This document shows positions 6,561 through 49,955 of a stretch of DNA of 64,000 nt, in pieces. The stretch lies in assembly GCA_031761405.1 (NCBI GenBank), contig JASEVX010000007.1, positions 57,077,385 to 57,141,384 on the forward strand, given 5' to 3'. The notes below the pieces were generated by a model. The model was not told the origin of the DNA. It searched no databases and saw only the letters and a list, made by a program, of their open reading frames with translations. The first letter of the stretch is position 1, and the number at the start of each line of letters is the position of its first letter. A program made the position numbers and the translations under genes. Source of the DNA: Serripes groenlandicus. Lineage: Eukaryota > Mollusca > Bivalvia > Cardiida > Cardiidae.

Positions 6561-6574
6561 ATCAACTTATCTTC

Positions 6575-9500
6575 CATAATGCTGATATGACTAAACCCTT
6601 TCCCACGTACACACGCTTTGAAATAACATGTATTAACTTATATTTCCTGATGCTGATATACCTTAACCCTTTCCTCACGTACACACACTTTGAAATAACA
6701 TGTATTGACTTATCTTTCTTGATGCTGATATACCTTAACCCTTTCCCACGTACACACACTTTGAAATAACATGTATTGACTTATCTTCCATGATGCTGTT
6801 ATGACTTAACCCTTTCCTCACGTACACACACTTTGAAATAACATGTATTGACTTATCTTCCATGATGCTGTTATGACTTAACCCTTTCCTCACGTACACA
6901 CACTTTGAAATAACATGTATTAACTTATCTTCCACGATGCTGTTATGACTTAACCCTTTCCCACGTACACATGCTTTGGAATAACATGTATTAACTTATA
7001 TTTCCTGATGCTGATATACCTTAACCCTTTCCTCACGTACACACACTTTGAAATAACATGTATTGACTTATCTTCCATGATGCTGTTATGACTTAACCCT
7101 TTCCTCACGTACACACGCTTTGAAATAACATGTATTGACTTATGTTTATTGATGCTGTTATGACTTAACCCTTTCCCACGTACACACGCTTTGAAATAAC
7201 ATGTATTGACTTATCTTTATTGATGATGTTATGACTTAACCCTTTCCTCACGTACACAAGCTTTGGAATAACATGTATTGACTTATCTTTCTTGATGCTG
7301 ATATGACTAAACCCTTTCCCACGTACACAAGCTTTGAAATAACATGTATTGACTTATCTTCCTTGATGCTGATATGACTTAACCCTTTCCCACGTACACA
7401 CACTTTGAAAAAACATGTATTAACTTATATTTCCTGATGCTGATATAGCTTAACCCTTTCCTCACGTACACACACTTTGAAATAACATGTATTGACTAAT
7501 CTTTCCTGATGCTGATATGACTTAACCCTTTCCCACGTACACACGCTTTGAAATAACATGTATTAACTTATATTTCCTGATGCTGATATACCTTAACCCT
7601 TTCCTCACGTACACACACTTTGAAATAACATGTATTGACTTATCTTTCTTGATGCTGATATGACTTAACCCTTTTCCACGTACACACACTTTGAAATAAC
7701 ATGTATTAACTTATCTGTCTTGATGCTGATATGACTAAACCCTTTTCCACGTACACACGCTTTGAAAAAACATGTATTAACTTATCTTTCTTGATGCTGA
7801 TATGACTTAACCCTTTCCCACGTACACACGCTTTGAAATAACATGTATTAACTTATATTTCCTGATGCTGATATACCTTAACCCTTTCCTCACGTACACA
7901 CACTTTGAAATAACATGTATTGACTAATCTTTCCTGATGCTGATATGACTTAACCCTTTCCCACGTACACACGCTTTGAAATAACATGTATTAACTTATA
8001 TTTCCTGATGCTGATATACCTTAACCCTTTCCTCACGTACACACACTTTGAAATAACATGTATTGACTTATCTTCCATGATGCTGTTATGACTTAACCCT
8101 TTCCCACGTACACACGCTTTGAAATAACATGTATTAACTTATATTTCCTGATGCTGATATACCTTAACCCTTTCCTCACGTACACACACTTTGAAATAAC
8201 ATGTATTAACTTATCTTTCTTGATGCTGATATGACTAAACCCTTTTCCACGTACACACGCTTTGAAAAAACATGTATTAACTTATCTTTATTGATGCTGT
8301 TATGACTTAACCCTTTCCCACGTACACAAGCTTTGGAATAACATGTATTAACTTATCTTTCTTGATGCTGATATGACTTAACCCTTTCGCACGTACACAA
8401 GCTTTGAAATAACATGTATTGACTTATCTTCCACGATGCTGTTATGACTTAGCCCTTTCCCACGTACACACGCTTTGAAATAACAAGTATTGACTTATCT
8501 TTCTTGATGCTGATATGACATAGCCCTGTCCCACATTCACACGCTTTGAAATAACATGTATTGACTTATCTTCCACGATGCTGATATACCTTAACCCTTT
8601 CCCACGTACTCACGCTTTGAAATAACATTTATTGACTTATCTTTCTTGATGCTGATATGACTTAACCCTTTTCCACGTACACACACTTTGAAATAACATG
8701 TATTAACTTATCTTTCTTGATGCTGATATGACTAAACCCTTTCCCACGTACTCACGCTTTGAAATAACATTTATTGACTTATCTTTCTTGATGCTGATAT
8801 GACTAAACCCTTTTCCACGTACACACGCTTTGAAATAACATGTATTGACTTATCTTCCACGATGCTGATATACCTTAACCCTTTCCCACGTACACACGCT
8901 TTCAAATAACAGGTATTGACTTATCTTTCTTGATGCTGATATGACTTAGCCCTTTCCCACATTCACACGCTTTGAAATAACATGTATTGACTTATCTTCC
9001 ACGATGCTGATATACCTTAACCCTTTCCCACGTACACACGCTTTGAAATAACAAGTATTGACTTATCTTTCTTGATGCTGATATGACTTAGCCCTTTCCC
9101 ACATTCACACGCTTTGAAATAACATGTATTGACTTATCTTCCACGATGCTGATATACCTTAACCCTTTTCCCACGTACACACACTTTGAAATAACATGTA
9201 TTGACTTATCTTTCTTGATGCTGATATGACTTAGCCCTTTCCCACATTCACACGCTATGAAATAACATGTATTGACTTATCTTCCACGATGCTGTTATGA
9301 CTTAACCCTTTCCCACGTACACACGCTTTGAAATAACATTTACTGACTTATCTTTATTGATGCTGTTATGACTTAACCCTTTCCTCACGTACACAAGCTT
9401 TGGAATAACATGTATTGACTTATCTTTCTTGATGCTGATATGACTTAGCCCTTTCCCACATTCACACGCTTTGAAATAACATGTATTGACTTATCTTCCA

Positions 9501-10530
9501 CGATGCTGTTATGACTTAACCCTTTCCCACGTACACACGCTTTGAAATAACATTTACTGACTTATCTTTATTGATGCTGTTATGACTAAGGCCTTTCCCA
9601 CGTACACAAGATTTGAAATAACATGTATTAACTTATCTTTCTTGATGCTGATATGACTTAACCCTTTCCTCACGTACACACACTTTGAAATAACATTTAT
9701 TAACTTATCTTTCTTGATGCTGATATGACTTAACCCTTTCCTCACGTACACACACTTTGAAATAACATGTATTAACTTATATTTCCTGATGCTGATATGA
9801 CTTAACCCTTTCCTCACGTACACACACTTTGAAATAACATGTATTGACTTATCTTTCTTGATGCTGTTATGACTTAACCCTTTCCCACGTACACAAGCTT
9901 TGGAATAACATGTATTGACTTATCTTTCTTGATGCTGTTATGACTTAACCCTTTTCCACGTACACAAGCTTTGGAATAACATGTATTGACTTATCTTTAT
10001 TGATGCTGTTATGACTTAACCCTTTCCCACGTACACAAGCTTTGGAATAACATGTATTGACTTATCTTTATTGATGCTGTTATGACTTAACCCTTTCCCA
10101 CGTACACAAGCTTTGGAATAACATGTATTGACTTATCTTTATTGATGCTGTTATGACTTAACCCTTTCCCACGTACACAAGCTTTGCAATAACATGTATT
10201 GACTTATCTTTATTGATGCTGTTATGACTTAACCCTTTCCCACGTACACAAGCTTTGGAATAACATGTATTGACTTATCTTTATTGATGCTGTTATGACT
10301 TAACCCTTTCCCACGTACACAAGCTTTGGAATAACATGTATTGACTTATCTTTATTGATGCTGTTATGACTTAACCCTTTCCCACGTACACAAGCTTTGG
10401 AATAACATGTATTGACTTATCTTTATTGATGCTGTTATGACTAAGGCCTTTCCCACGTAAACACGCTTTGAAATAACATGTATTGACTTATCTTCCACGA
10501 TGCTGTTATGACTTAACTCTTCCCATTTAC
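6575..10530. repeat. satellite array, ~55 copies of a 71-72 bp unit
   Basis: Each unit contains TTAACCCTTTCCCACGTACA, CACACGCTTTGAAATAACAT, GTATTGACTTATCTT and GATGCTGATATGACT. Spacing between GATGCTG marks is 71 or 72 bp; the difference comes from CCCAC versus CCTCAC after the CCCTTT block. Variants (ATATGAC/TTATGAC/ATATACC, GCTTTGGAATAAC) are interspersed, and 9.9-10.4 kb is a nearly homogeneous run of one variant, suggesting recent local amplification. Open frames of 60-90 codons read through the repeats but carry no independent evidence of coding. The TTAACCCTTTCCCAC start matches the terminal repeat of the TTAA-flanked MITE family elsewhere in the window. Confidence 0.97.
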
Positions 10531-10672
10531 ACACGCTTTCTGACGCCTCTGCAGCATACACTTCTTGAACATAATATGACAAAATGAGGAAGTGCTCACG
10601 ATAAGCAATCTCTCCTTTTGCCACCATGTTTTCAACGTTATCTAATAATTATACTTTCATTTAAAAAATAGG
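10512..10672 (+). mobile_element. TTAA-flanked palindromic MITE, partial, at the satellite edge
   Basis: It starts at TTAACTCTTCCCATTTACAC, in register with the last satellite unit, then runs into the MITE interior: GCTTTCTGACGCCTCTGCAG, a weak inner palindrome (GACAAAATGAGGAAGTGCTC and its near complement), then TTTTCAAC and TACTTTCATTT. The distal inverted end is missing. Confidence 0.7.
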
Positions 10673-11800: not shown

Positions 11801-14800
11801 GTAAGTCATGATGTTTTATTATTCGTATAAAAGAGGGATGGGATACGATCTTTTATATTTGTTCCTTTCATTTGTTTCCGTTAACATTAGTTTTTTAGAT
11901 CAACATCTGTCATCAGATGTCTGTCGTCCGATGAAATCAGATTCTCTGAATTCAAAACAATGCCATGGGAGTGTTACCTATGTGTTCCTTCGTCTAAACT
12001 TATTCAAACCGTTCGTGTGCTCTGAACAAGCTAAAAGTAATATAATCTTGAAACGGCATCTCCTCCTAAATCACTGGTCTAAGTACACTATAGTGTTATA
12101 TTAATGCTCTATACAAGTTTGTTAAACACAACTGGTTAGCTCGGCTGGACTAGATGGCTGCTAGAGCTTTTTCACAGACCAAATTTAAAATTAATTGCAC
12201 TCAAATGTTCCTTGTGATGCCCTCTAACAAAACTATTCAAATCGTTCCGATCCGTTAAAAAGAGAACCCACGGAGCTACTTATAGCTTTAATGGTCTTAA
12301 CTCCTTAACAACTAATCCACTTTCAAAATTATTTTACACTAATGTCTTTTAAGCAGTTCTCTATCTCAATGTTCGAACCGCTATGCTCCCCTATACAAGA
12401 TGGCTGTCAGAAGTATATTCATAGGCTTACCGTACATTAAACATGTTCAAACGGTTCCGCACCACTGCACAAGCTAGTCGCTAGGGCTGATAATATATAT
12501 ATATATATATTTTCTTAGAAAGGCATTACCTCCTAAACCACTGGCCCAATTTAAAAATGATTTCACACAAGTATTCCATAGGTAGCTATCTACCAAACGT
12601 TTACACAAGATGACCACCAGAGCTGAAAATTACGGTGTTCCGTTAGGGCCATCGTTGTTTCGCGGTTTCGACCTAGGGTCGACAGTACGATAACGCGATG
12701 CGATAGTACGAAACGCGATGCGATAGTACGAAAACACGATGCGAAAGTTCGAAAACGCGATGCGAGGAGGCGATATTAATATCGTACTTTCGCGTCGCAC
12801 TTTCGCGATTTCGCATCGTGTTATCGTGGTTTCGACCTGGGGTATCGTACTATCGCATGGCCTTTTCGTACTATCGCATCGCGTTTTCGTACTATCGCAT
12901 CGCGTTTTCGTACTGTCGAAACCGCGAAACAACGATGGCCCTAATGGGACACCTAGGGTCGAAAGTACGAAAACGCAATGCGAAAGTACGATAACGCGAT
13001 GCGATAGGACGATAACGTGATCCGATAGTACGATACCCTAGGTCGAAACCACGATAACGCGATGCGATGCGAAAGTGCGATCCGAAAGTACGATATTAAT
13101 ATCGCCTCCTCGCATCGCGTTTTCGCAGTTTTGCATCGTGTTTTCGTACTTTCGCATCGCGTTTTCGTACTATCGCTTCGCGTTGTCTTACTATCGCATC
13201 GCGTTATGGTACTGGCGACCCTAGGTCAAAACAGCGAAACAACGATGGCCCTATCGGAACACCGTAGAAAATAGATTACTCTTTAAATGATGTCACCTAA
13301 GTGATGCGCAAGCCAATCCGGGCCGACACATTCCATCTCAAAGAAATGGAGGTATAGAGTAATGATTCCTGAAACAGAAAATCCACAGAAGGCGATAAGT
13401 GTCTGTCCGGGTAAGCCTGCGTGGCATGCTTAGGCTGGTCCGGGTCGATACTTTACGTAGACTCCACAATGTTGGTTTGCTCGTGGGATTACTCATTATC
13501 ACACTTTCTTCTTCCTTATCTTCAGCCTATGAATCCAGTTCTCAAGTAGCGGTACTATCAAATGGTGCATGTTTCCTTAGCAACGGTGGTATTTACCATA
13601 ACAACGGGGACACCTGGTATGAGTTAGTCGATATGTCGAATGGACAGGTATTTCAGCAAACTTATCCAGTTTAAATTAAAATTGAATATTATGACAGTTA
13701 GAAAGTTGTCAGTGAAATATAATTGGTGTGACGTGTTTAGTACAGTATGTTGGTTTTTACCGTTAAACTGCTTCCGGAATAGTATAATAGAATCGGCTTA
13801 CTTGAATAGGAAAACATTTAACATCCTCCAACAATAGAAGTATACTGTGATCATAAAACATTTGAACACATTTCTATAGAAAGAGTACTTTTTCTTTTCT
13901 AAATAAATTCTAGTTTACCCAGAATGCTTTTCAACAGCCGCTTGCTGCAAAGACATTCAAACATAGTCTGTATATACAAAGATGGTAAAGGATAAGAAGT
14001 TGTATCACGATTCACTAGCTGAACAGTCCACATGCAATTTAATCTCACGAAAGTTTAGAAGAACTTAAAAGAAACAAGTGAATAAGTGCGCATTACCGTT
14101 GTCTCTGGTATACCTCCGGGTTGGTAAATAGCATGGTCATGGTTTTAACCACACACAAAGTAAAAATGAGCCCCTCCATGGGAATATACGTTGACCTTTG
14201 CGAAAAATGTAGATCAAGACCAGCCTGTGACACCACAAGTCTGATCAAGATATAACACAGTTCACATAATATTGAGCCGTTCCGCGAGGAAACCAACATT
14301 GTGGATTATGCGTAAAGTATCGACCAGGATCAGCCTAATCATGCCGCGAAGCCTAACCTGGACAGACACGTTTCGTCTCCTGTGGATTTTCTGTTTCAGG
14401 AATCATAACTATATACCTCTATCCCCCTGTCACGGAATGTGCGGTCCGGATTAGCATGCGCGGACTGCGCAGGATGATCTTGGTCGATATATTCCGTGGA
14501 GGCCATACTGTTGGTTTTCTCGTGGGACGCTCAAATTACTTACACAAATCTGTTAGAAGCTTGTTATCGTGTATAATTTATATTCTGATAAGACTGAGCT
14601 GATTTATATAAACTTACACTGTATATAAAAGGTGACTGAGTCCAATTCCACCAACCTTACTTAGCGCTAAGTAAAACTTTTAAAACACTTAAAATAATAT
14701 TTCATAATTTTTGTTTCCGTAATAAGAGTGCCAAAATATGTCATCTCTTCATAAATGTTGTTAGTCAGCACGGTCACTATTTATGTCAACTTAGTCATTG

Positions 14801-23461: not shown

Positions 23462-23617
23462 TCAAAACAGACGGGTGTCTTTTGATCCGAGTAGGTTAGT
23501 TTTGAGTCGAGCGAACCATGTTGTTTGATAAACATAAGGGTTTTGTTTGTACAGAAATGCGGCCTTTGGGTCTTTTGGTTTCCATTGATTTGATGGCCAA
23601 AGTGAACTTCTGATTCT
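23462..23617 (-). CDS. SLC6 transporter, exon 14 (C-terminal tail)
   Basis: The acceptor is TTTATTTGCAG. It encodes [20 protein letters not shown] and on to DTRLF, then TGA (23464-23462). The RL(R/K)xxLxPxxxWxP pattern is the usual SLC6 start of the cytosolic tail. 51 residues. Confidence 0.95.
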   Translation of the reverse strand, partial: RIRSSLWPSNQWKPKDPKAAFLYKQNPYVYQTTWFARLKTNLLGSKDTRLF

Positions 23618-26600
23618 CTGCAAATAAACACATAATTTATTACGATAACACATACTTTGGTTATGGTTGAACATAAAAACACAATTTCTGTGTCAACCAA
23701 ACAGACTATTATTTTGAGTACCCACAACATAGGATCTGTATTAATGATATAGAGTATTATGCTCGAACTCGAATTTAAAAACATAAGATTGCCCCTCCCC
23801 CTCACTCAATTGTCAACAAAATGGCGTACACACCTGAATGAAAGATCCATTCTCTTGCAGAAGGGTCACCACAGCACATACACAGAAATTGAATAAAGGT
23901 AAAAGTCCAAAGGCAAAACCGATTGCGATGGCGTATGGCTTATACGTGTAGTTATCGCCGTATGTGGCCTCGTTATACTGGGTCAGCATAAGAATAAAGG
24001 TTATCTGCGGAGTAGACAATACAATATGTAAGAATAATTTATGTATTAAGGTTCCAATAATTTTGTAGACGACGTTCTAAGTTTTGTTTGGAAAGTAAGT
24101 ATGAGACAGACTATGGCTTTAGCTTCAAGTACGTGATGGCTGGACGCCTTCTATAGAGCCGTTCATTAATAAAAACACAATAAGAGCATTGTGGTAAGTT
24201 GTCTTGAAAGATCGTTCATATTAACCTTTGTTCTGTTTTTACTGTGGGACCCTTCGAGATCACGTCAAAAGTGATCTCAGATGTCGACGGCCTTCTGATT
24301 ACTTACCAACTTGCACACTCCTTGAATATCGAGTACGTTTTCACGCAGATAAGCATGAATAGCAAGAGGTTTTAGTGTAACTGGTAAACTTCTCTGAACT
24401 TACTTACCAAAGTTGATATTGGAATAATAATGCAGAATAAGAAGCGAGAGAACTTTGACAATGGCCATCCAGTCATCAAGGCAATATCAACTGAAAATCT
24501 ATCAATACCTGAAGTAAATACAAAACAGTGATGACAGAGTGAAACCTTTTAAGAGACATATACTAAAATTAAATGGTTTTTTTTTAAACGATTATATCGA
24601 TTTTCTCTATATATGAACGATAATATAAGGTTTTTGAAGCTTGCATCAGCTGTACAATTATCAATAATTAAATGCATTGTAGTCAAATGAAAAACCATGT
24701 CTTAAATTGAATATGAACATGCAACGTTCAGATTGTTTTGATGTGTCAATTGGACTCAGGCAGGGTGAGCTATTGCCATTGTTGTTATTTATTCTTTTTA
24801 TGAATGAAGACGAAAATAACATATATAATAGTTTTATCTGATTCAATTTCAAATAGTATGAATATATAGATATATGTTAAATTGAGGTTTGAAAAATCAA
24901 AAGCAAAAAATCTGCGATTTTGGCAAAGGTTATCTACCTAATCGGGAACATTTATTCGTTGACACCGATGAAATAGTTATCAATTTCGTATATCTTTGGT
25001 TATATTGGCAATTGAACCAATGTGTGTTACTGGGTTACATGACTAGGCACTGCACCGCCTGTTGGGAATATTATATTGGTCTGAAGTTTTGGATATTTAC
25101 AACTACAAGTTCATTGGTAAACTTCACCTATGCTTTTGTAAATTTATATTGGGAGAAAGTCAACAGACTCTAAACAATGCAATTTAAGGTTAACCATTAC
25201 GATTTCCCCTTAGCATACTTTCTAAAGAGATTATTTTATAATCTTTTACACAGTTTTAAAATAGCATGGTTCTGTTACCCATTTTACATCTTTTGACCAA
25301 TTGAATAACATGCCCTAGTAATATGAATATTGTTATTGAACATCTAGGCTACGCTTTATGACTCAAAAATACTTACACTAACATTCTCTCTTAATGCATT
25401 ACAAAGCAGATTGACATCAGTGTATACAAGACTGGTCTAGTAATGTCAATCCTACATTAAAGTTGTTATAATTTTGTTTATTCAAAACCGAATTCTGTTT
25501 TGAAGAATATCTTCAATACAAAGTTAAATGATCATTTGAGGATATAGATAAGCAATTCTTTTTGTAAACTATGTTACATGAAAGCCGTCGAGTCAGAATA
25601 TTATTTAATATTAACCTACCCAAAGTATGACATTTTACGCAAACAATACATTGGTAACATTGCAGGGCCCCTTACCGACTTTCACAATATCAAAATGAAG
25701 GAATGACAAAGATAAACATGTATAGAACATTTTTATTGCACAAACAACTTTATATACATTTTCATTGAAAAGATGTGACTTATTACTCATTTTCAAATTT
25801 ATCTAACTAGTCCTTATATTTCTTTTATTTATTTTTGAAATTTATAATAGCGATGACATTTAATCGTAATATTAAACGGTTTTAATACTTACCATAGATA
25901 AGTGATAACGATGATACTTCCAAGCAAGCACCAATAAGCAATCCAAACGCTGAACAATACCAATCCATTAATTGGAACAGATAAACGCCTCCCTGTATAA
26001 CAAATACTGAAAGTTAACCCTTTGCAACAGAGTTTGCTCGCCAAATCGTTCAATTTGCACGGCGAGGGTAAACAAAATCAAATCAGGTTTGCAACAGACA
26101 GACACGTGTTGTTGCATTTGAAAAGATTTTTTCAAAAAGAGAAAATGCTCATTAGCATCTCCTTTTGCCACGATGTTTTAAACTCTTTTCAATTATAAGT
26201 ATAATTGCATGAGTAATATGCTGCATATTTGTTGAATTTTGGGAAGATGATAGATGGACGATGATGTGACAGAAACTGTTGATATATAAGATATATCCGC
26301 AACCTGACTTAGTTCACGCCGACAAACCACATGCGGAGGTATTATAGCGATTACCTTCGTATCGTTCTCATAACCGCCCTCTAGAGGCTTTCATGATTCC
26401 ATTTTGACTAGATGGCGAACCAGGCAGATCCTGTTCAGAATACGCAAATGCATATTCTGATCTGGATGTTTACCGGTTACAAAGTCTCGCACGTAGGTAT
26501 ACTAGCGACGTATCAGATCTGATTTTGATAAAAATATAGTAACTCATACCTTGCTCGGGCTAACTAGTGTTTACATGTGTAAGATAATGAAACGTGGTAA

Positions 26601-29600
26601 GTATTTTCTAAATCGTTTAACCCGAAGCGACCGGATTATGGTTAATTCATGCTTGTATTATATTTATTCAATGAAATAATGTTGAAACGGCGTAAACCCC
26701 AAACAAAACAACCAAAATGTTTATTCAAATGCCAATAAAGTTTGCAAATGTATAACATTTATCATCACGCGCATGTTTGTGCACCGAATTAAAATGTGTT
26801 ACATTTACATAAAACAAATGTAATGCAAACAAAATCAAAGAAAATGCAAATTTATTGATGAATTGCTAAGTTACAGCACTGATACACTTGTTTTCATCGG
26901 TTTTCGACTCTTGAAATTATGGGATTGTGACCTTGAACTTTGAAGTACAGTTGTGGTTATTTGTTATTTAACAATCTGATTGTTGCATTTAAAAGTGACA
27001 GCACTGACATTCTTAAACGCACCACACCAAATCGCTCGACGCAAGCATGCTCGACAAATATGTCTGTATTTGGGAAATGGTTAAGCGAACAAGTTCTGTA
27101 GGTCTTTATATCAAGTAGTTATCTTTTTTTTTTTATTATTTAATATTTATTGCTAAACGCTACTGTTTTGCTACGAAACAAAGGATTACAAGTATTATAC
27201 TTCTCGTACTCAACGAAAACCAGCCATAGTGTATTTACGACCTGTGTATTATAGTGTTTTTTGAAAAGCGCATCAAACTGCGCTGGATCTTAACTATTCG
27301 AAAAGCAGTCACGGAATGACTCAAGGATCTATTGACGAAGATGACTTTAGATCAGATTCGAAGGGTGTAACGGTAGACCTGTATCTACACTTTTCAAAAG
27401 GTACGCTTAGGATGGCTTTCCTAGTGCACGGTTTCTTCTTATGTACATTTGTGGTAAACACCAGGCTGGCTATATACATTACACCTCCAAACACCAGATT
27501 AACGAGTACCCTGTGATGCCCTAAAGTTCTTGGGAATTGTTCCATTAATGCACACACTATTGTTTCGATCATACCAAACTGAAAGAAAAGAGAAAAATTA
27601 GATCAAGAGATTTTATAGACGGTTATACGGGGATACTCAACTTTGGAAACAACAGATAAGCCTTAATATGAGTCCGTCTTCTCGAAAACGGTACTTGTGT
27701 GCAATGTCTACACAAGTTCACATAAGCTTCTAACAAGCTGACGTTAGTATCTAAACGGTCCAAACAGTCAACTTGTATCATTAAGAAAGGACGGAATCAT
27801 AGGTTCACCCTCTTCTCATAACAGATCAACCATAAATTCCATACAGTAATCTATACTATCTGCCTATGCGTAAAGGCTGTACTAACGTCACAGCTTGGTT
27901 AACAGTATCGTGATTGTTTAGAAAAAAAAAGGCTTGACATGGTAAATCACACAACTTTGATAATATATATCTTCCGTTTGAATTTGATTACTGGAATATA
28001 GAATGAACAGTCTGCTTTGTTGGAATCTAGCCTCTTTATATGCGTAAAACTTAGATAAATAAAATGACACAGATCAGACTACGTATCTATGTTTCCGTGT
28101 CCTAATACGAACCAGTCCATGATAATATGAACAAGTTGGCATTTCTGAATAGTGTTTGTTTAGATTACCGTGTTCATCTGATACAGCTGTATCAGGTTCT
28201 ACACAAGTTGATGGACATTTCTAACAAGGTGTTGTAAGTAACATTTGAGTAATGTAGATCTTGTTTAGAAAACCTGTACAGTTGTCCATGGTTAGGCTCA
28301 TATAAAGTGTCTCTTGAATGGTTACGTGGCTAAAAGACAAACCCTGCAGACCTAGACTAGATCGCCTAAGGACATGGTGATCAGGGTCTACACTGATCCT
28401 GTAGCACGGCCCGTGTGTCTAAATATGTTTACTTACATTACTGTCCAAGATGACAAGCATCAACATCAAAAAGAAGAGAACCGCCCATAAGCGCGGAACG
28501 GGCATCATGCTAATTGCCGTTGGGTATGCAACAAACGCCAAACCAGGTCCTTTAACAATACAAAATGTATAAATAAAAGTAAATGTTGTGGTCAAGATTA
28601 TCTGTATTTAGTGAAGGGGCATTTTTCTGGCCTTGTCATAAAAAGATCTGATTTTGATATTCAGCTCAATTTTGAATTGACTTCTAACTTGCCAGGTTCA
28701 GAAAATAGTTTATTTACTAAAGAACGTTTGAGAAGAACATTCTATTCCGAGTGATATTTACACTCGTTTAACAAACGGTTGTGTCTGCACAAGTTTGTTA
28801 TTAGTGGGTAAAATCACGAGGGATACGAACTCTCCTATTAAACGTTCAATGGTAAATACATATATTACATATGTAATAGGTTAAAATTCAAGTTACGTCT
28901 CGTAGATGACGTTATATATGAATAATAATTATAGAAGAAGCTTTATCGTGAGATTTAAGGTAATATGATACCTGATCAACTAAAGCAGGAATTTAAAATT
29001 ACTGATTTTCAGCACTACGAAATTGTCTTTCCATACACTTACATGTACGACTAAGGTAAACTAAATTAGTCCTGTTTTTCTTAGATGTACGTTAAAGAAA
29101 CCCTGGAATAATTGTTTGGTATTTTACGACGCTTTAAAAACTGTTTAAGTTATATCACGGCGTTTCCTGGGTAAGTTACCAGTACTAGTGCTCCATTTTT
29201 CCTGACATCAGCCAGTCAGTCGTAATACTAACCCCGTAACCCTGGGCACCAAGGAAGGCAGCCATTAATACCATTGTTCAAGTCTTTGGAATAACCAGGA
29301 CGGGGATCGAACCCGCAACCATCTGAAAAAAGCTATTCATTTGAATGTTTTGTGAACCAAATCACGTGAGTCTGAAACATATATAAATGTATTACGGAAT
29401 CAACATAGCCACTAATTTGAACAGCCATCGACTTCTAAAACCGATTTCTTGAAGCAAATGCCAACAGAATAGAGCCAGGCCAGCATGGTCATTCGTACGG
29501 TCTAACAGGGCTCTATACCGCTATCTTGATTTTCTATGAACTGTTCCGAATGCAAAAAGGAACTAATTCATTTTAAAAAGTCAGCATTGAAAGTGTTTAT

Positions 29601-32600
29601 ATATTTGTATACTAAATCCAAGACTTGGTTACATAATAAAGAAAATCAACGATTTTGCTCTGTAAGAATATGATGACCATAGCATATTTACCGCTGGAGG
29701 TCGCTATTTCTGCGATCGGTATACCGGATTGCTTGGCCATGAATCCAATAGTGGCAAACACAATCAGCGCTGCATATACCGCTGTGAACATATCGGCCGC
29801 ACAGATGATTATAGTATCTCTGAAAAAAGATTACGAAACTGTTAATCGTGTAAAAAGGTAAGTACGTTAAGATGCCGGACGACGGATGACTGAGGATAAA
29901 CAAAGGGCAATGACAGATGACAGTAACACACCTTCAGTAGTGCAGTAAATGGTTCTCTCTAATATACATATATACTTGGAGAAGAGACATATTTAACGAT
30001 TCTATCTGATCTTCAAAACATATGATTTTGATACTCAAAAGAGTTGTTTTCTCACGTAATGGTAGAAATCAAGTAATTATAAAATTATCAAGAATAAAAA
30101 ATGTGACGAACTTTTAAAATGAGCGGTGCTCCATAATAACCAACCTTATCATAATTTTGACACATGTGAACACATAAAATATCTGACTGTGCATTCATTC
30201 TATGGGGTAAAAAAAGAAGTGTTTTTCAGAACTTTATTAAAACCGTCCATGACTTATTCGCGAACAATGCATAGTAAGATTATACTGGATATATGATGCT
30301 TAAAAAGCCTTAAAGGTGCTGAACTCCAGATGACGAATAATATACATGTAGTCAATGTTTTAAAAATGTTCAAAAGTTGTCATGAAATATTAGAATCATA
30401 ATTCTGAGATAAAATTAGAGTAATAAGTTCACTTTCCAGTACAATAAATATCTAAATATTGATCGTTTATGCTTCCTCTTCACTCAGTAGCCATATTTTG
30501 AACATTTTCATGATTTTTAAATGAATGTTTTTCAGCATTTACTGCCAAAAAGAACTATTTACTACTTACTTTGTTGTCACTATTAGCAATATTTGCAGAA
30601 GTATCAACTTTTCATTATTTTGATCTCCATCTAAAGTTCAGCACATTTAAAGCATTGTTTGGACACTTACTTGAAGGTCTGTTGGTTGAATTTATTGTGA
30701 GATGACATTGTTATCACACCTCCCCATAGTGGACCCAGTGAATAAAATATTTGCACTGATGCGTCCAACCATGTCTAAATAAAGATTATTTGTCAATTTA
30801 CCAAATTTTAAATATATTTAAATACTTCGAATACACTGAAAGGAATATTTGTCAGATGCAATTAATCACGACGTCTATTATAATTTGAACGGAAAAACGA
30901 TAATTAAGGAATATGAATTCAACTCCAATCTTTCTTTTCCTTTTATAGTAAAAGCTTTTAAGGCTCATGGTAAATATGGTAAATAAATAAAGGGCCGTCA
31001 TTCGTGAGAATGGATAGGTTTAACATGTTTCAACACATTAACATAATAATATATGATTAAAAGATGTGTGTACAATGTTCTGGAAAAAGAAAACATTGAC
31101 AATATTTCAACTCTAGCATTGTAATTTGGAAAAGCCGTTTTCAACAGTTTTATCAGTTATAGCATGGCTACAGAAGACATCAACCATTTGTGTCAAACTT
31201 GAACTATGCTAGGAAATGTGCCTTTCCGTTGGGCATTCAGCTATCGACGCCACTTTCAGCGATCGAACCCTGGACGCCGGTATCAAATCTCCGACGCGAA
31301 CTACTATGCCACAATGGACTCATTTAAACCTTTCTCTTTAGTTTATAAGTAGACGGAAGCGTACATAGAAAACACTTTTACCTGATATATGGTTAATCTG
31401 TAACTTTCAAACTTCAGGAAATACAACAATCCATCTACTGCTCCATCAAGAGTTAGGCCTCGTACCAGTAAAATGGTGAGAAGAACGTATGGAAAGAGGG
31501 CTGTCACATAAACTACCTGAATATACAATTATGGTCAATTATTACAAAAACGTGTGTCTTGCAATGAAAGCAATTTGATATAAAATATGCATTGTAAAAT
31601 ATAAATTAATATTATTAGATAAGCTATTTAAATAGGAACTGGAAACTGTATAAATGATCGGCTGGAATACCAGTTGTCTTGGTAAAACTTAACAGAAGTT
31701 TTGAATTTATTTTTAAACATGAAACACGCTGAATGCTGATAACCTTCCACATTACCAATATATTAGGCATTAGTGTATATATAGATATTGCTCCGTCTAA
31801 TTTCTATATGAAAAGAAATGCAGTATCTGTCCATATTTAACTCATTGATATTGCATTAAGATCCTGTTCACGTGCTGCATAGGACGGAACCATTTACAGA
31901 TAGTAACCTTACACAACTCCAATCCAACTTTTGATGATTTTAATGACTTGCTTACAATGTTTACGTCGTTTGTAGATGTTCATCACACAATCTGGTATAT
32001 TCAAATCGATAGCTGTGTGTTTCTAAAAATAATTTGCTAACGTTATATGTGACGCGTACATCAATGAAATCGCTATCCTGTAGATTAGCTACACCTATTG
32101 ACATACGCTTTACATTAGTGGTTTGTAATTTCGTTGGCGTGTTATGTAACTATATCTGCGTAATACATTACCAACACAATACAGAGAGAAATTCCCGCAC
32201 GAAGAAGCAGACTATTGTCTTAAATGGTTCGTCTTCTAATTGTTGTATCATTCACTGAGGGGATTTTTTCAACGGAACAAGAAGACATGTGTTAAAAGTT
32301 CGCTATACTGACCAAACAGTCAGGTAAAAAAATCCTATTTAAGAACAAGAATATCGACATGAAAATATCATACTTATAATCAAAGCACTGAAAGTTCTGA
32401 CTGCCTGAGGGCTGCAGGAAGGTCGGAGAAGAAGTGAAAATGTGAACAGAAATAACAATTACAGCTTATATTTAAGTATTTATTTTATTGTTAAGAAGTT
32501 GAAAAATCATATCAAGAATAGTAAATATTATGAAACTGGCAATTGGAAACAGGAAGACCCCTTGTTGGCCATATATCGCTCACCTGAGTGCAAGAGCTCA

Positions 32601-35600
32601 CAAGTATGACAAGTTAAAGTCATGAAGAATCAAAGGAATATTGGACAACAGGTTTAGACAGAAACATTATGAAGTTTGTGCCTTATTATATTGAAAAATA
32701 TGTCAATGTTAAATCAACTTCCATCAAGTAGTTTCTGTGTGTTTAACAAATAACACCAACTCGAGCAAACTTGGTGGAGGTTCAGAGAAGTTCAGTCAAT
32801 GAACATTTCAGATAAACTATTTTGAAATCCGGCTGGGCCAGGAGTTTCTGACAAGAAGAATTTGATAATTGTTCTATTTGTCGCCATAGAAACATGCTGT
32901 GCACTGAAAGGAATTATGTGAACAACTGTAAAAGTGGGGCCATGTAAGGAACATCGGTTTTTGATGAGAGCTACGGACAGTGAGTGCTTCCAATATATCA
33001 TCTAAAGCATAATTTCTTGTTTAAGGATCAGATGTGGTCGAAACTGATAAGTGTAATTTAGCGTAGTATTGAGTAAAGAAGAAAATATGTATGCAATTGA
33101 ATCCAGCAACTACCATAATGAAAACATTAAAAGACATACACTTATACTTACTAACAACAGTTACAGAACAAAGTTAATGAATGAAAAATAAGAAATTTCA
33201 CAAAGAGCAATATGCTGCACGCACTCCATAAGCATGTGTTACTCCTACACATTCAAAGCATGAATTCATCATTTATCAGTTATGGATTGATTGAGTCCAC
33301 TTTTACGGACATAGAGGAAAATAGTAAGAGTTTAGAAAAATAAGAGCATTTTTAACCCTGAGTAGACCATTTTTAATATCGTGCTGGTAAGGGATTGGAA
33401 AAATGTGTATTTATAAATGGTTATGTTGCATTTGTGTGAAAAATGCACCATGGTCATCTAGTCCCCATGAAACATTATAATGCTTTGACTAATGACCTAG
33501 TTTGAGCAAATTTGACAGTTTAGAACAAGGCCCAAAGTACATGAGAAAATTCTGCACCAATGCAATAAACTGAACTGGTAATGATGTTTGAAAAACAAGG
33601 TTCGCAAAAAATAATCTCCAAACGATAGGCAATAACTATGCATTGTGCAAGTGACCTTGTTATGACACATATGACACATAGTTAACCCTTTGCTCCATAA
33701 GCATTTTCTTGGACTCATCCACATCGAAAGCAGTAATTCACCACTTATCCGAAATACGTGAATTGTGGTTCGATTTGCTGACATAGTGGATAACATTGCA
33801 GGAAGAGTTGCTAGTTAGGAGGAATCTGAATTCTCCCTCCACTGTTTTCAAATGCCTGCTTTATTGGTTACAGGGAAATGCGTTGATGTGGAGCTAAGGG
33901 TTAGACAAATCCACTCGTGACTTCTTTGTTTACCATTTATGTTTCGTCGCAATTTTTCGGGAAAACTTATTTTTGTTTGTTTGTAAAATATATTATGGAA
34001 TATGAAATTAAAGAATATAAAAAAAAAGTAAAATGATACAAAAAAATCGGGCATGATGATTTGTTTCATAATGGCAAATTACACCATTTAAACTGAATTG
34101 GACAATCTTTGTAAATACCCGAACAACAGTTAGAAACTTCGTTCATTGTTTTATGGTAGCATTCAACCACCGCTTTAATATCGCGTCGACACAAAATGTT
34201 ATTTGTCATGATCATTACAACCATCGTAAAAGACAATCAGTGCGCAATAAATTGTAAATGTTAATTAAACATGACAATTCAAATAATTGTTAAATTTCTA
34301 AATGTTCGAAGTATTTAAAAATCATGAAATTGACAATGTTAAATAGCCGATATTAGTATTTACAATAAACAGGTTATTGCATTAATATGGTAACATGTTG
34401 GGACTCTTTCCTTCGGCAGAGGTATACGTTCGCTAGCTCGGGCAACTCTGCCGATGAATCTCATTTAACACAATTGCTTTCCAAGCATATTTAGTTACCT
34501 ATATGGTTGACATATATTAACTTTGAAAACTTATAATTCCACAATGATGACTACATACCTTGCCAAGTGATTTGACACCTTTGATGACCCCAAGTATAGA
34601 TATCATCCATGCTACTAGAAGGCACACTGCGAGATGTAGTTGTACAGAACCCATATTTTCTAAACCATCAGCTTGGTGTAGAACATGGTATCTGCAAGGG
34701 AGTTACATTTTAGTGTTTGGTTCAAAACGGTAAATCCACTACCTAACATGTATATATAAGACTCTCTTAAGATTGCTTTAATGAATGAAGATTGTCCTGA
34801 TCTTGAAAGGTATGTACAGTAAAATCTAAATTTAGCACTTGTCGAATAATACAGCATAAACAGTAACTACAATATCACCATTCGGATATGTATTACGAAA
34901 AAGTGTCAGACAATTTTACATCGCTTGAGTCAATGAGTGAACTCTGGAATCCGCCGTGTCCGAGTGGTTAGCGTCGGGGATTAGGAATGGGGTGTTCCGG
35001 GTTCAATCCACAGTCTTGGCGCGGTGGTCATGGTGGAGTGACCTTGTACAATGTAGATATCCTAGCCTAGAACTGGTTTGATAACCCAGGGCCCTTGAAT
35101 AAGTGAACTGTCGTCATGATATAATTGAAATAATGTTGAAAACGGCGTACAATCTAAATAAAACAGACACACAATGGGCGAGATTGAAATTAGGATACCG
35201 ACGATGTTTGAACAAACAAATGTTTTTGTGTACTTTAACCCTTTCCCACTTGCAGACACATTTCGACGCATTTGCAGTAGACGACGTTTGAAAACATTGT
35301 GGCAAAAGGAGAAATTGCTCAAGATGGGCATTTTCTCCTTTTCCCACAATGTTTTCAACTCTATTGAATGATGAAACTCTGATTTATGAAGATATTTCAT
35401 GTTTCGTTAATATGGTTTGAAAGTCGTCTGCTGCGGAATTGTCGTATGTGGGAAAAGGTTAAAACAATTCCTTAGTTTCTATTGTATATTGAAGAAGTTT
35501 ATTTCAAATATAAATTCAATAGGTAACATGACCCGTGAGAAAAATAACACACACAAATAAACATCACAAATGACATAGCAAGTGGAGCACATTTACCAAT

Positions 35601-38600
35601 TAACAAGTACAAAAATTCGCAAGAGGTAACATGTATCAAAGACGGAGAAGGTGTTGTTCAAACGTAATATCATATCCTCATCACTACTTTATATATACAC
35701 GCTTAACAGGCAATACAATTTAATATAACACAATATAATATAATATAATATAATATAATACAATACAATGTAATATCATATAACATAACATAATAAAAAA
35801 TAATATGATACAATATGTCCAATATAGGCAAGGGGCATATTGACAAAAGTATGACACATTCACATCAATAAATGAAAATTAAATCAGTACATAAAATGTA
35901 AAGACAACACAACATTTATATTTACAACTTATTTGTACAATGTACATTACCACTACGAACCATATCTTAATTGAAAAGCTTTCATTACATGTGTACATAT
36001 ATTTCTAAGTTAAGAAACATTAGTGCATTCGAACAATTGTTTTAGTTTATACATGCTAGAAATATATCTTTTACGGAGGTCAGAAAATAAATTGCATTTC
36101 ATCATAAAAAATGTATTCGTCTTCGATCTGATTACATGTAATACATTTTCTATCTTCACGTAGGATACTGTTTGGGCGATGCCACCTACCAGTTCCAATG
36201 GAAAGATTATGTGCTGAAAGTAGTAACTTTGACATTGCAGCAATTAAATTATTACTGAAATTACAATTTAGATAAAACTGAAAGTTGAAAGGAACAATGG
36301 ATTTGAAGAAGGTACTGCGTGGTGATTTATCAATTCTTGCATTCCAGATCTGTACATTTTTATCACGCAAACGTTGTTTAAAATGACACATAAAAGCAGT
36401 TACGTTAACATTTTACAAGTTTAATTTGGTCTCGTTTATCGTTTGCCAAGTACAATCTAGCTGTATTTAAACTTCGCATATAAACACTGACTACACCTAA
36501 ATATTCGTACAGGTATTGAGAAATTAAGATAGTCAAGTTTTTATCAGGTGATTCAAAAATTGGATTCAACTGAAGACCAAAGGATTTTGGCATTGATTTT
36601 AATATTCAAATCTGTGATATTCGTATCAAATGCACTGTGTGAATCGCTGGATTTGATTGGTTTGAAAAGAATCGCGTGGCTAAAAGGAATTGCGTTTTTT
36701 TCCCGATAAACAGAATTGATCACATGACCAGGTTGCGGAACTACCTTGAAAAAAGAAAGTAGATCCCAATTTTCAATTCATATTTCGCTTTTCAAACAAT
36801 TATTTGGTGAAAGATGACTTTTTCCACCTGAACTGCAATTATATAAGTTAATTTATGTTTTGGTGCAGTTATAAGAGTATAATACGAACTTGCTGACATA
36901 ACGCCCTACGGCATTATTTGCCGAGTAATTTAGCAATTTCCTGTTATGCTCTCATAACTGGACCAAAACATACAGTAAACCCTTTAGTAAACACAAAATT
37001 ACTTACTTCCAAAATTCTACTGCTGGTAGTGAAGTGCCGTCTGTTGTTTTATTGTTCATGTACATGTCTGAATGGGTCTCGTTCGTCATATCAAACCGTG
37101 CTTGGTTCAAACTTTCGTTTATACCAACTGCAATAATGATGAGAATATCACTATTAAAGTACGACTAAACATAATTTAGCATGTGCAGATCAATATCAGC
37201 TTGCAAATTCATACAGTCCCATCTTACACTACAACCTTCGTTACACATTAGATTATTAAATTATCATAACACTCTTTTTACATAACTCTGGCAAGACGCC
37301 GTCGGTAAAACGAATACTTGTCGATGAATGCACATTGTGGATACACAATATCCGCTCAAAGCATTTAGGGATTTAACGGATGTGTTTTTAGATTGTACAG
37401 TTACATAAATACGTATTCAAGTTAAAGCAGTTTTTTCATCTTGAGAAACAAAAGACATTTAGCATTGTACCATATTTATAGTGATTCGTAATGCCAAACA
37501 TTATAATATAACAATCTTGAGACTGCAACAAAATTAATCTTACGTTGACAATTTGGCGTGTTCCATTTGTTGTTACACGTGGACCAGGGTAGTGGTGATA
37601 TGAATGAGTTGTAGAAGTAGTATAAAATCCAGGCGAGTATGATCATGATATACCATACGACTGTCAGTGACATTGTTAATACCAGATAACCAGTCCCTGA
37701 AAGAATGAAATGATCATTACATACCATACGACTGTCAGTGTCATTGTCAATACCAGATAACCAGTCCCTGAAAGAATAAATGATCATTACATACCATACG
37801 ATTGTCAGTGTCATTGTCAATACCAGTTAACCAGTCCCTGAAAGAATGAATGATCATGACATACCATACGACTGTCAGTGTCATTGTCAGTACCAGATAA
37901 CCAGTCCCTGATAGAGTGAATGATCATGACATACCATACGACTGTCAGTGTCATTGTCAATACCAGATAACCAGTCCCTGAAAGAATTAATGATCATTAC
38001 ATACCATAAGACTGGCAGTGTCATTGTCAATACCAGATAACCAGTCCCTGAAAGAATGAAATGATCATGACATACCATACGACTGTCAGTGTCATTGTCA
38101 ATACCAGATAACAAGTCCCTGAAAGTATAATATGATCATGATGTACCTTTCGACTGTCAGTAATATTAATAATACCAGATAACATGTCCCTGAAAGAATA
38201 AAAAAAAATCATGATGCACACTACGACTGTCAGTGACATCGTCAGAACCAGATAACCAGTACCTGAAACAAAGATATGATCATGATGTACCATACGACTG
38301 TCAGGGATATTGTCAATACCAGATAACCAGTTTCTGAAACAAAGATATGATCATTATATAACTTACGAATGTCAGTGACATTGTCAATACCAGATAACAA
38401 GTCCCTGAATCATGATGTACAATACGACTGTCAGTGACATCGTCAGTACCAGATAACAAGTCCCTGAAACATTGATATGATCATGATGTACCATTCGACT
38501 GTCATTGACATCGTCAGTACCAGATAATCAGTCCCTGAAACATTGATATGATCATGATGTACAATAAGACTGTCAGTGACATTGGCAATACCAGATAACA

Positions 38601-41600
38601 ATTACCTGAAAGAAACATATGATCATTATATAACTAACGACTGTCAGTGACATTGTCAATACCAGATAACAAGTCCCTGAATCATGATGTACAATACGAC
38701 TGTCAGTGACATCGTCAGTACCAGATAACAAGTCCCTGAAACATTGATATGATCATGATGTACCATTCGACTGTCATTGACATCGTCAGTACCAGATAAC
38801 CAGTCCCTGAAACATTGATATGATCATGATGTACAATACGAATGTCTGTCTAAATGTCAATCAGTCCATGAAACAATGATATGATCATGTAGTACAATAC
38901 GAATGTCTGTCTAAATGTCAATCAGTCATAGAAAGAATGATGTGATCATAATGAACAATACGATTATCAATTACAATGTTAGTACCAGATAACCAGTTCC
39001 TAGAAAAATGATGTTGTTATGATGTACACTACGAATGTCTGTCACAATGCCAATCAGTCATAGAACCAATGATATGATAATGATTTACAATACGAATGTC
39101 AGTCGCAATTTTAATGAGTCCCAGAAACAATGATTGATGACGTAAGATTATCCGATACTTCAAACTCAAATTTTTGACACACCTTTATAGCATCAAATAA
39201 GATCGGAATGACATGGTAACGGATTCATAATTGACAATTGGATCTTGATCTCTCCAAACCAAACATTTCTACAGAAATATCCTTGTGGATTAGCCCACTC
39301 TAAACAAAACTCGTCTACGCATTGTTACACAACAGCAACTATCACTTAGGACAAATTTCCCCGTTTCCAAGTATAACAGTTTATAAACTTTATAGTTTCA
39401 AGGAAACACTTGAAACATTTCTAGTGTCAATGCTTTCTAATTTGATGACACATAGAAATGTAGAAGTCGTTATGTACGTGAAAGTCAATATTTAAAAGAG
39501 GCAACATGATAAGATTCATAATTTTAGACTTTGTCGTCACCAACATGTCAACACTTTTCCCATGGAACACGCCTTCATGTTTACGTTGATAACTAATTAA
39601 ATTGCACTGCTATGAGCCGAGCCCCGGTAACCAGGTAGTAGCGACGTGGAATGTCAACTCAGAGGTTGTGAGTTTGATCCCAAGCTCGGCCAACATTTGT
39701 TTCGTTCTTGACAAAAGTCAATTCGACAATCGTCATTTGCCTTCCAACAATGGGCTTAAATGACATCTGAAAAGGCAGCCATTTTCTTGGTAAGACTGTT
39801 TTGCGTAGTATTGATGTTGGAAAAACGTGAACCAGTTGCCGTGAAAACTTGTCGATTTCCGACCGGACTTTGAGCGACGAATTTTGCCCGGCGCTTGCCC
39901 GATATGTGTGATGCCCGGCCGGACATCGGCAAGGCAGCAACCGATTAATGTGCGATCAGTTTGCGATGAGGTTTTAAGTCCGAGTTTAAAGTAACTCGAT
40001 GCCCGCGAGTGGTCCAGAAGAGTTCCGGCCGAAAATGCCTAGAAATCCGCCGCAAACTACTCGCAATCCCATCGCAAGGTAATTTTAACTAGGGTTTAAG
40101 TGATAATAGGTAGGCTATATTTCTAATTCATAAATATGCTTTTCAAAACAATATAAATCTGCAGCAGAAGACTTTTGCAAACATAAAAGTATTTCTATGT
40201 GCAGACATAAGGCACATTCCTGTAAGCATTTTCGTCGCCATTGGCGATCTTCAGTCGGACGTCACGAGGCCAATAGTTGAAATTCTTTCTTCGAACTCGC
40301 AACTTGTCACCAGAAAAGTGATCGCTATCCATCGAATAGTGTGGACATTCGGGTCGCTTGACTTCCTTAGTCAAGTCGTCAATAGTTGACTGGTCGGTAA
40401 GATAATGGTGATAAACCACCTCATTTATTCCTCCAGCACTCGATTTACACCTGCCAACTAAGTGCACGACCCCCAGTAAATCCGCCACTGCATTTGTCAC
40501 GTGATTTTATTTGTTTACTATTTATTTTTCGTAGCAATTACCCGGGAATATTCGCAAACTTATTTTTTTGTTCGTAAAATATATTATGGAATGTTATTGC
40601 AGAATATAAAAAGAAAATGTAAAATGCGAAACCATAATGGTAAAATCAGGTATAAAGATTTGTTTCATAATGGAAAATTACTCTATTTAAACTGAATTGA
40701 ACAATCTCCGTAAATACTCGGACATAGTCGTACGTTTCCGTTCCACTTCACGAATGTTAATAAGCTTCCATATTTGACCTCTCGGCGCATTTATTTTTAA
40801 AGCATTTGTTAAATTTATATTGGAGTACTCACGCCTTAAGTTTTTCACTGATGTTCCAAAACCAATATAATGATCTTTTTTTTGTTGAGATCTTAACATT
40901 TTAAATGCTGTTTTGATGAATCCATGATGAACTATTTTGCTCGCGCAGTCTCACCCTAAAATGCGTTGATGGGTGTTAACAGCAATTGGCATGCTGCCAA
41001 CTCCGAAAAAATGGTATTACTACTATGACCAGGGGCTAAAGCCCCAGGGTAAAAACGGTGTTCTGTATTAAAAAAATAACAGTTAACATAAATACAATAA
41101 TACAGCAAAGAATTGCAATTTCGCTAAACAGGAAGCTCACCTTTGAATAACGGGCAGAATTCATAAGCCTTCGTCACGCCCTTTCCTGTAAACTGACCCA
41201 GGTTAATCTCTAAATAATACAGAGGTCCGCCGATCACCACTAAAATCAGACATAGCGGTATAAGAAAAGCCACGCCCCCATTTCTTATACATAGCATGGG
41301 AAATCGCCAAATTGACCCAATTCCCACAGTGTATCCAATTAGTGCAAGTAAGAACTCAAGTCTGTTGCCCCAGGTCTCTCGTGATTCCGTAATCTCTACT
41401 GTGTCTTCGGTGAACAAGAACTTCTCGCCTTCAGGGTCTTTGGAAGAACAAGATTGGTTGTTCAAACCTGGAATAAAAACACTGACAATGTTAATGCACA
41501 CTTGACATTTGATAAATGAATTTAATGAAATTACTTGTGTTTATAAACTTAATTTCAAAAGAAAATTAGGTAGCCTGTAACAGTTATTCCAAAGAATTGT

Positions 41601-48374: not shown

Positions 48375-48530
48375 TATTGGAGGACAACTACCTGGTCTTT
48401 GTTCCCGGATGGGCTTTATTTGCAGGGTCATTTATGCAGAAATGTTTTAATTGGGAAACTAAAAGTATGATTGCTAAGAAATGGAATTGATAATCAAAGG
48501 TGGTCTTTAGCAAGGCTTCGACTGTACATG
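48375..48530. mobile_element. MITE-like repeat with CCACCTATTGG end, arm A
   Basis: ACCACCTATTGGAGGACAAC, CCTGGTCTTTGTTCCCGGAT and AAAGGTGGTCTTTAGCAAGG, the same order as 42350-42525. The 109-bp array starts directly after it. Confidence 0.7.
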
Positions 48531-49955
48531 TATTATGCAAGTTAAATGTATCACGAACTAATAATGAATGGAATGTGATTTAGTATTCCTAGTTCCACAA
48601 CCAGGGTAATATATGATAAACATGTATCTACAGCTGAGGTATTATACAAGTTAAATATATCACGAAATAATAATGAATGGAATGTGATTTAGTATTCCTA
48701 GTTCCACAACCAGGGTAATATATGATAAACATGTATCTACAGCTGAGGTATTATACAAGTTAAATGTATCACGAAATAATAATGAATGGAATGTGATTTA
48801 GTATTCCTAGTTCCACAACCAGGGTAATATATGATAAACATGTATCTACAGCTGAGGTATTATACAAGTTAAATATATCACGAAATAATAATGAATGGAA
48901 TGTGATTTAGTATTCCTAGTTCCACAACCAGGGTAATATATGATAAACACGTATCTACAGCTGAGGTATTATACAAGTTAAATATATCACGAAAAAATAA
49001 TGAATGGAACGTATTGTAGGATTCCTAGTTCCACAACCAGGGTAATATATGATAAACATGTATCTACAGCTGAGGTATTATACAAGTTAAATATATCACG
49101 AAATAATAATGAATGGAACGTATTGTAGTATTCCTAGTTCCACAACCAGGATAATATATGATAAACATGTATCTACAGCTGAGGTATTATACAAGTTAAA
49201 TATATCACGAAATAATAATGAATGGAATGTGATTTAGTATTCCTAGTTCCACAACCAGGGTAATATATGATAAACATGTATCTACAGCTGAGGTATTATA
49301 CAAGTTAAATATATCACGAAATAATAATGAATGGAATGTGATTTAGTATTCCTAGTTCCACAACCAGGGTAATATATGATAAACATGTATCTACAGCTGA
49401 GGTATTATACAAGTTAAATGTATCACGAAATAATAATGAATGGAATGTGATTTAGTATTCCTAGTTCCACAACCAGGGTAATATATGATAAACATGTATA
49501 TACAGCTGAGGTATTATACAAGTTAAATATATCACGAAATAATAATGAATGGAATGTGATTTAGTATTCCTAGTTCCACAACCAGGGTAATATATGATAA
49601 ACATGTATCTACAGCTGAGGTATTATACAAGTTAAATATATCACGAAATAATAATGAATGGAACGTATTGTAGGATTCCTAGTTCCACAACCAGGGTAAT
49701 ATATGATAAACATGTATCTACAGCTGAGGTATTATACAAGTTAAATATATCACGAAATAATAATGAATGGAACGTATTGTAGTATTCCTAGTTCCACAAC
49801 CAGGGTAATATATGATAAACATGTATCTACAGCTGAGGTATTATACAAGTTAAATGTATCACGAAATAATAATGAATGGAACGTGTTGTAGTATTCCTAG
49901 TTCCACAACCAGGGTAATATATGATACATATGTATCTTCAGCTGAGGTATTATAC
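48523..49955 (+). repeat. 109-bp minisatellite, 13 copies, only in arm A
   Basis: CAGCTGAGGTATTATACAAG marks occur exactly 109 bp apart from 48631 to 49939. Units differ by few bases; a subtype with GAACGTATTGTAG recurs in a pattern (48.99, 49.11, 49.66, 49.77 kb), implying multi-unit duplication. Arm B holds one partial unit at 54580-54700. Confidence 0.97.

Follow-up and report, generated by a model that had tools for sequence, protein, structure and literature searches.

The stretch of DNA analysed here, called the window, comprises 64,000 nucleotides from the bivalve Serripes groenlandicus (G000:C1407:57077385-57141384, within an assembly of 1.76 Gb) and carries on its minus strand a gene of the SLC6 transporter family, gene A, which runs from at least 41467 to 23474. 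The intron between the exon for transmembrane segments 1 and 2 (TM1-2) and the TM3 exon is 3,444 bp long (41140-37697) and contains, upstream of the TM3 exon, 21 tandem copies of that exon's own acceptor and start, located by wrap-around alignment at about 37697-39133 on the minus strand. This TM3 array is real, well preserved and of the known 'mirage' kind, a name given to minisatellites that span an intron-exon boundary in the amphioxus gene Adh3 and in the globin genes BflGb6 and BflGb9 (accessible part of PMC3087553).

The SLC6 gene and the array upstream of its TM3 exon

Five of the seven pieces of gene A (TM1-2, TM3, TM5, TM7 and TM8) pass the PF00209 cut-off of 27 bits, the TM3 exon with an E-value of 5.9e-14 in Pfam; the TM9-10 piece scores 15.1 bits, and the TM11-12 piece has no match. 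When joined, the TM1-2 and TM3 exons align without gaps to the two dopamine transporter chains for which an alignment was available, and none of the 12 recognisable blocks of the gene contains a stop. The best named proteins in a full-length search were mostly SLC6 proteins of heterodont bivalves (among them Mactra, Mercenaria and Ruditapes) with 40-49% identity, and the best 120 matches in each of two protein searches included no protein of the source species. Between TM3 and TM4 an exon for extracellular loop 2 would be expected, but none was identified in gene A.

The initial annotation had described about 20 copies of a unit made of the TM3 acceptor and the start of the exon, and alignment bears this out: in each unit 58-59 nt from the start of the TM3 exon are joined to 12-13 nt of intron end, and the array abuts the real exon. 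Tandem Repeats Finder (TRF) called an array with a period of 71 and 17.4 copies at 37638-38846, with a degenerate continuation to 39138. Counted outward from the exon, the 16 core copies comprise 14 of 70-73 bp and two of 59 bp, and over the shared stretch they are 80-95% identical to the exon start of gene A; for the five distal copies this value is 73-87%. The outermost distal copy is partial, and the distal edge of the array lies about 30 nt past the last aligned copy, near 39133. Four units form a higher-order repeat of about 272 bp that is repeated nearly exactly. Throughout the 64-kb window, the minus strand holds 18 ungapped matches to the exon start at 45/59 or better, each of them within the array or the exon, and the plus strand holds none; lowering the threshold to 40/59 adds none on either strand.

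The copies thus hold 58-59 of the 153 nt of the exon and lack its real donor, and in this they differ from the whole-exon copies of mutually exclusive exons. A donor-like motif, ATG/GTATGT (the slash marks the splice position), recurs about 43 nt past the acceptors of copies -1 to -6, and pseudo-exons of 43 nt, from CAG to this motif, are conceivable there on the sequence pattern.

Age of the array and its origin from the exon

A DNA search of the species' own genome, in which very common words are skipped, listed 40 matches, all of them in three SLC6 loci on one contig, and the array was therefore rejected as a dispersed satellite. The two further loci, genes B and C, are on the plus strand, and their TM3 exons lie 78 and 114 kb away from that of gene A. 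All three genes lie within about 150 kb, gene A being inverted relative to the others, and the homologous blocks of A and B or C are mostly 82-92% identical (about 75-96% depending on the block). By wrap-around alignment, 10 upstream copies are present in B and 18 in C. Across the three loci each copy is 71-95% identical to the exon start and individually mutated. With the real acceptors excluded, AG directly precedes 17/21 copies in A, 3/10 in B and 15/18 in C; it is absent from the outermost edges of all three arrays. The sequence AG/GT, which would mark a dual-specific or ratchet array if it stood at the copy boundaries in general, is found in 2/21 copies in A, 1/10 in B and 2/18 in C; one further gene C copy begins with GT, but AG does not precede it.

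A tree of the copies was built from 39 of the 52 aligned rows, after 13 degenerate or partial ones (A17-A21, B4-B10 and C18) had been dropped, and several of its deep nodes are poorly supported. Within it, copies of different genes come together according to position: A7 pairs with C6 (support 95) and A8 with C7 (support 85), A9 groups with B2/C17 (support 89) and A3 with C2/C4 (support 86). The exon starts of A and C join each other, away from the copies of their arrays (support 97). Because the copies group by position across genes, and because the distal edge lies at the same place in A, B and C, these sequences indicate that the array predates the triplication of the three genes.

The synonymous divergence (dS) is 0.085 between A and B and 0.13 between A and C. 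The ratio of nonsynonymous to synonymous divergence (dN/dS) of gene A is 0.33 in the comparison with B, over 12 blocks; in that with C it is 0.20, over 10 of the 12 blocks, since the TM4 block, which has a deletion, and one unmatched block were omitted. In gene C the TM4 exon has lost 4 nt, and its donor reads GTCTGT in place of GTATGT; on this sequence the gene may be a pseudogene. One gene B block (127790-127900) reads one stop, in a codon appended past the matched part that is probably intronic.

The exon, for its part, is the source and not the product of the array. A protein search of the genome gave 114 SLC6 matches, and the TM3 comparison covered 20 other loci with 1.3-7.0 kb of upstream DNA (about 18 genes, as two pairs are near-identical). 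AG stands at the homologous phase-1 boundary in all 20, and in none of them does the upstream DNA contain an ungapped match of 62% or more to the exon start; one of the 20, L037, has a different duplication of 34 bp across its acceptor. The junction region aligns gap-free in 167 of the 236 aligned relatives and is gapped or partial in the remainder. Since 20 other TM3 loci have the homologous acceptor without this array, the exon came first, as the initial annotation had proposed, and an origin of the exon from the array was rejected.

One residue of the TM3 exon stands apart from the family. The codon ATC (37647-37649, minus strand, within TGG-TAT-ATC) encodes isoleucine in gene A, and gene B has valine there; of 159 relatives, 149 have Tyr or Phe at this position, which we take to be that of the substrate-site tyrosine, and the other ten include P0065, P0122 and P0136. 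The isoleucine may mark an SLC6 subgroup with an altered substrate.

Other tandem arrays are also present in the window. The one at 6565-10539 (56 copies) shares the 71-bp period of the TM3 array and has a different consensus; at 48530-49955 there are 13 copies of a 109-bp unit, 97% alike, with related arrays near genes B and C; and several related 21-bp arrays in both orientations occupy 12680-13213.

Decoy acceptors and their predicted fate

In gene A the array offers 17 decoy acceptors (16 CAG and one TAG) and, with the real site, 18 acceptors in one intron. This count corrects the initial annotation, which had spoken of many copies that keep a usable CAG/GG acceptor. The annotation's further statement that most decoys would shift the frame holds by length for 12/17; the remaining five keep the frame, though a stop before the end of the exon is reached from all 17. 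The same is true of 3/3 decoys in gene B and 13/15 in gene C, whose other two decoys (-2 and -4, at +141 and +270 nt) would give an open extension in frame; in gene A a TAT-to-TAA change within copy -2 puts a stop after the decoy at +141 nt. Such poison decoys would need no selection, because the 71-nt step shifts the next copy so that TAT-TGA or TAT-TAA is read.

Over 40 nt (21 upstream and 19 downstream) decoy -5 does not differ from the real acceptor, and the local acceptor sequence therefore cannot make the choice. Where large introns offer alternative sites, those closest across the exon are preferred, as expected under exon definition (accessible part of PMC9225289), so the last copy is predicted to serve as the acceptor; most likely it is chosen by exon definition.

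The TM3 frame can be followed copy by copy, as had been claimed, but it is not conserved as a frame. Parsimony steps per column at codon positions 1, 2 and 3 are 2.74, 1.65 and 2.21, so that the excess at third positions is absent, and conservation of the copies as coding sequence was rejected. The hexamer TTTCAG of the acceptor changes little: it has 4 parsimony steps, where windows of six columns have 13.4 on average, with p values of 0.005 for random columns and 0.0014 under a Poisson model. Among contiguous windows, however, its rank is only 4 of 71, and that of the 8-nt stretch TTTCAG/GG is 12 of 71. With these ranks, strong selection on the decoy acceptors is not established.

We consider it likely that the array is a tolerated boundary-spanning mirage minisatellite whose copies are non-coding passengers and whose last acceptor is the one used. 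In the ancestor of the three linked genes, about 71 bp across the TM3 acceptor would have been tandemly duplicated, and the array would then have grown and shrunk by ordinary minisatellite turnover, of which the 21, 10 and 18 copies and the 272-bp higher-order repeat are the visible outcome. The copies, which carry no codon-position signal, would be passengers. Splicing would go to the last acceptor, the intron being long and the spliceosome pairing the sites closest across the exon, and occasional use of a decoy would yield a transcript with one of the stops seen for 17/17 gene A decoys, which would presumably be degraded. The array would on this proposal be tolerated rather than used, because the last acceptor wins and stray decoy transcripts are degraded. 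Some points weigh against this account: the choice of the last acceptor is a prediction from DNA; the low change in TTTCAG hints that selection could be keeping the decoys; and three paralogues still have the array at a dS of 0.085-0.13, which is long for junk, a persistence qualified by the loss of most decoys from gene B.

An alternative, close to the suggestion in the initial annotation that array length could tune expression of the transporter, is a rheostat in which decoys are kept since they lower the transporter level through decayed stop-containing transcripts, copy number setting the fraction. The stops that follow all decoys of A (17/17) and B (3/3), the place of the acceptor hexamer among the low-change stretches of the unit, the retention of the array in A for the whole time since the paralogues separated and the occurrence of the 2/15 open decoys in C, the copy that may be dead, are consistent with it. 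However, the stop follows largely from the unit itself, through its 71-nt step, the conservation of the hexamer is weak once window choice is allowed for, and B keeps only 3 decoys though its coding sequence stays constrained, so that we regard a rheostat as distinctly unlikely. Still more doubtful, in our view, is the wider proposal that the 17 inherited poison acceptors form a dial adjustable by copy number, with boundary ladders, of acceptors as well as donors, recurring across the family and yielding splice-site variation and new introns. Exchange between copies and exon, by which the array would have driven exon evolution and altered the start of TM3, is unlikely as well. Residues 2-20 match the 159 relatives at 0.284 against a mean of 0.378 (standard deviation 0.071), with 7/159 at or below that value, and in 5/159 the difference from the remainder of the exon equals or exceeds the one seen here; but this contrast was examined post hoc, the separate pairing of the A and C exon starts in the copy tree speaks against exchange, and P0065, P0122 and P0136, which likewise lack the TM3 tyrosine, are also below the mean there.

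That the array supplies alternative or extra exons for protein variants, either as 43-nt pseudo-exons or as an extended TM3, we hold to be very improbable. The motif ATG/GTATGT in copies -1 to -6 of A and -1 to -5 of C, and the two open decoys of C, would fit such a role, but no open in-frame extension arises from any of the 17 gene A decoys, a second partial TM3 would be expected to disrupt the transporter fold, and the codon-position signal is absent. An assembly artefact with inflated copy number at one locus is extremely improbable: tandem arrays are prone to errors of assembled length, and the 272-bp block in A is a nearly exact repeat, yet three paralogous loci have the array, with different, individually diverged copies beside shared older ones, and the blocks of the three genes, at mostly 82-92% identity, are too divergent to be haplotypes.

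Boundary repeats at other SLC6 exons and in known systems

The survey of other exon boundaries comprised 91 loci, namely the 20 TM3 loci with longer flanks and 71 further SLC6 exon regions; with 114 of 609 first-look candidates scored, it covers part of the SLC6 exons of the genome. TRF arrays span 5/208 exon edges, whereas of 13,165 non-exon positions sampled from these loci 1,170 (8.9%) lie in an array, a rough control in which locus lengths differ and flanks are unmatched. Tandem repeats are thus common in this DNA, in keeping with a minisatellite origin of the TM3 array. They touch exon edges less frequently than introns, which would be expected were such arrays to arise randomly and be partly weeded out. 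Two of the five spanned edges (L037 and L084) proved on inspection to be mirages.

An alignment test gave z values above 5 for 10/101 acceptor sides and 4/98 donor sides, and inspection left three clear independent cases at other SLC6 exons: L037; the cluster of L075, L081, L082 and L084; and, on the donor side, L024 and L025 (Table 1). The duplication at L037 is possibly the first step of such an array. In the cluster, AG/GTAA occurs at three or four places, the real one included, and since the exon begins with GT the copies are potentially dual-specific on their sequence. The two contigs of L024 and L025 may be uncollapsed haplotypes or recent duplicates. L098 is a plausible donor-side mirage. 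L028, L032, L074 and L089, with matches of 21-29 nt, were not classed as clear mirages.

Other candidates were rejected: of the remaining edges spanned in TRF, those of L061 and L063 have a 40-bp array just upstream of the TM6 acceptor that does not include the exon, and L100 is of low complexity; L042 is a dispersed repeat, as judged by its likeness to many open reading frames. The visible copies of the 40-bp array differ between the two contigs of L061 and L063.

Table 1 Features of gene A, its TM3 array, its paralogues and other boundary repeats; positions without a contig name are those of the window.
Feature	Position	Strand	Remarks
TM1-2 exon	41141..41467	minus	donor AAAG/GTGAGC; start inferred from AG before first matched block
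TM3 exon	37544..37696	minus	153 nt, phase 1 in and out; identified by PF00209 match, donor and translation
TM3 exon donor	37543-37538	minus	GTAAGA, read from the sequence
TM4 exon	34559..34691	minus	downstream SLC6 exon of gene A
Remaining SLC6 blocks, TM5 to C-terminus	23474..31519	minus	nine blocks, stop-free in gene A
Core copies -1 to -16	37697..38806	minus	intron-end part shorter in two; CAG directly before all 16 and before the real exon
Distal degenerate copies -17 to -21	38807..39133	minus	subfamily of about 62 bp; AG before copy -19 only (TAG)
Donor-like ATG/GTATGT in copies -1 to -6	37697..38118	minus	sequence pattern only
Start of copy -8	38260..38265	minus	CAG/GTACTG, acceptor fused to donor-like GT, dual-specific or ratchet-like; sequence pattern only
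Start of copy -13	starting at 38605	minus	CAG/GTAATT; sequence pattern only
Region of paralogues B and C	G000:C1407:57191385-57246000	plus
L037	C1518:26186500-26189000		34-bp two-copy duplication across TM3 acceptor, unlike gene A array
L075, L081, L082, L084	C852 cluster		four paralogues; array of about 45 bp across TM5 acceptor
L024, L025	C963 and C1230		near-identical genes; TM3 exon end and donor copied into next intron
L098	C1407:81182470-81183320		short-period repeat from donor with few exonic bases; several intronic CAG/GTAAC-like sites

The TM3 array offers a natural experiment on splice-site choice, with 18 acceptors in one intron among which only position and wider context can decide. 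The graded series of 17, 3 and 15 decoys, together with the two to several copies at other SLC6 genes, could be used for testing exon definition, and the same series serves tests of poison-transcript decay and, beyond the lancelets, of the idea that introns are gained through mirages.

Splice sites multiplied by tandem repeats are known from other settings. A minisatellite of short 12-bp units in IFI6/G1P3 reportedly provides multiple splice donors; it multiplies a splice site as the TM3 array does, but the donor and not the acceptor. In UBC, tandem arrays of dual-specific AGGT splice sites are spliced stochastically, the repeat delimiting the ubiquitin monomers (accessible part of PMC10809524). 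The C852 TM5 array, with its repeated AG/GTAA, resembles this arrangement in placing splice-site motifs in tandem repeats, whereas the TM3 array is intronic and most of its copies read CAG/GG. Tandem duplications carrying splice signals have also been linked to intron gain or gene change (accessible part of PMC2812944); splice signals are duplicated in the TM3 array as in intron gain by internal duplication, but a new intron is not shown for it.

The closest likeness is to the amphioxus mirages, to which the accessible part of a second report adds the gene PGBD5, with a mention of TnC (PMC3902484). Mirages are defined by a unit that spans an authentic boundary, by many copies that keep the signals, by length instability and by undisturbed regular splicing. 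The TM3 unit takes in the end of the intron and the start of the exon at an authentic boundary, and many, not all, of its copies keep AG (17/21, 3/10 and 15/18). Gene A, constrained and free of stops in its 12 blocks, bears on regular splicing only indirectly. Both are minisatellite-like tandem duplications of an intron-exon boundary, copy number varies, for the TM3 array between paralogues (21, 10 and 18), and in the accessible part of PMC3087553 many but not all amphioxus copies likewise keep their splice signals, BflGb6 has the same geometry (the 3' end of the intron with the 5' part of the exon) and the Adh3 mirage, at 10-72 bp, has a similar unit length. The initial annotation had called a minisatellite seeded on an exon boundary unusual; the amphioxus mirages and the other SLC6 exons described above qualify this. 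Literature searches with bivalve or mollusc terms gave no mollusc case among the records listed (12 of 70), which is weak evidence of absence. The TM3 array also differs from the amphioxus cases in several respects. It has 21 copies against 6 and 3 in the BflGb6 haplotypes, and amphioxus splicing was checked by reverse transcription PCR (same part of PMC3087553), while the TM3 array is known from genomic DNA. It lies in a bivalve SLC6 transporter, whereas the reported range of mirages is the cephalochordates, and, unlike the amphioxus cases, it is common to three paralogues and can therefore be ordered relative to gene duplication.

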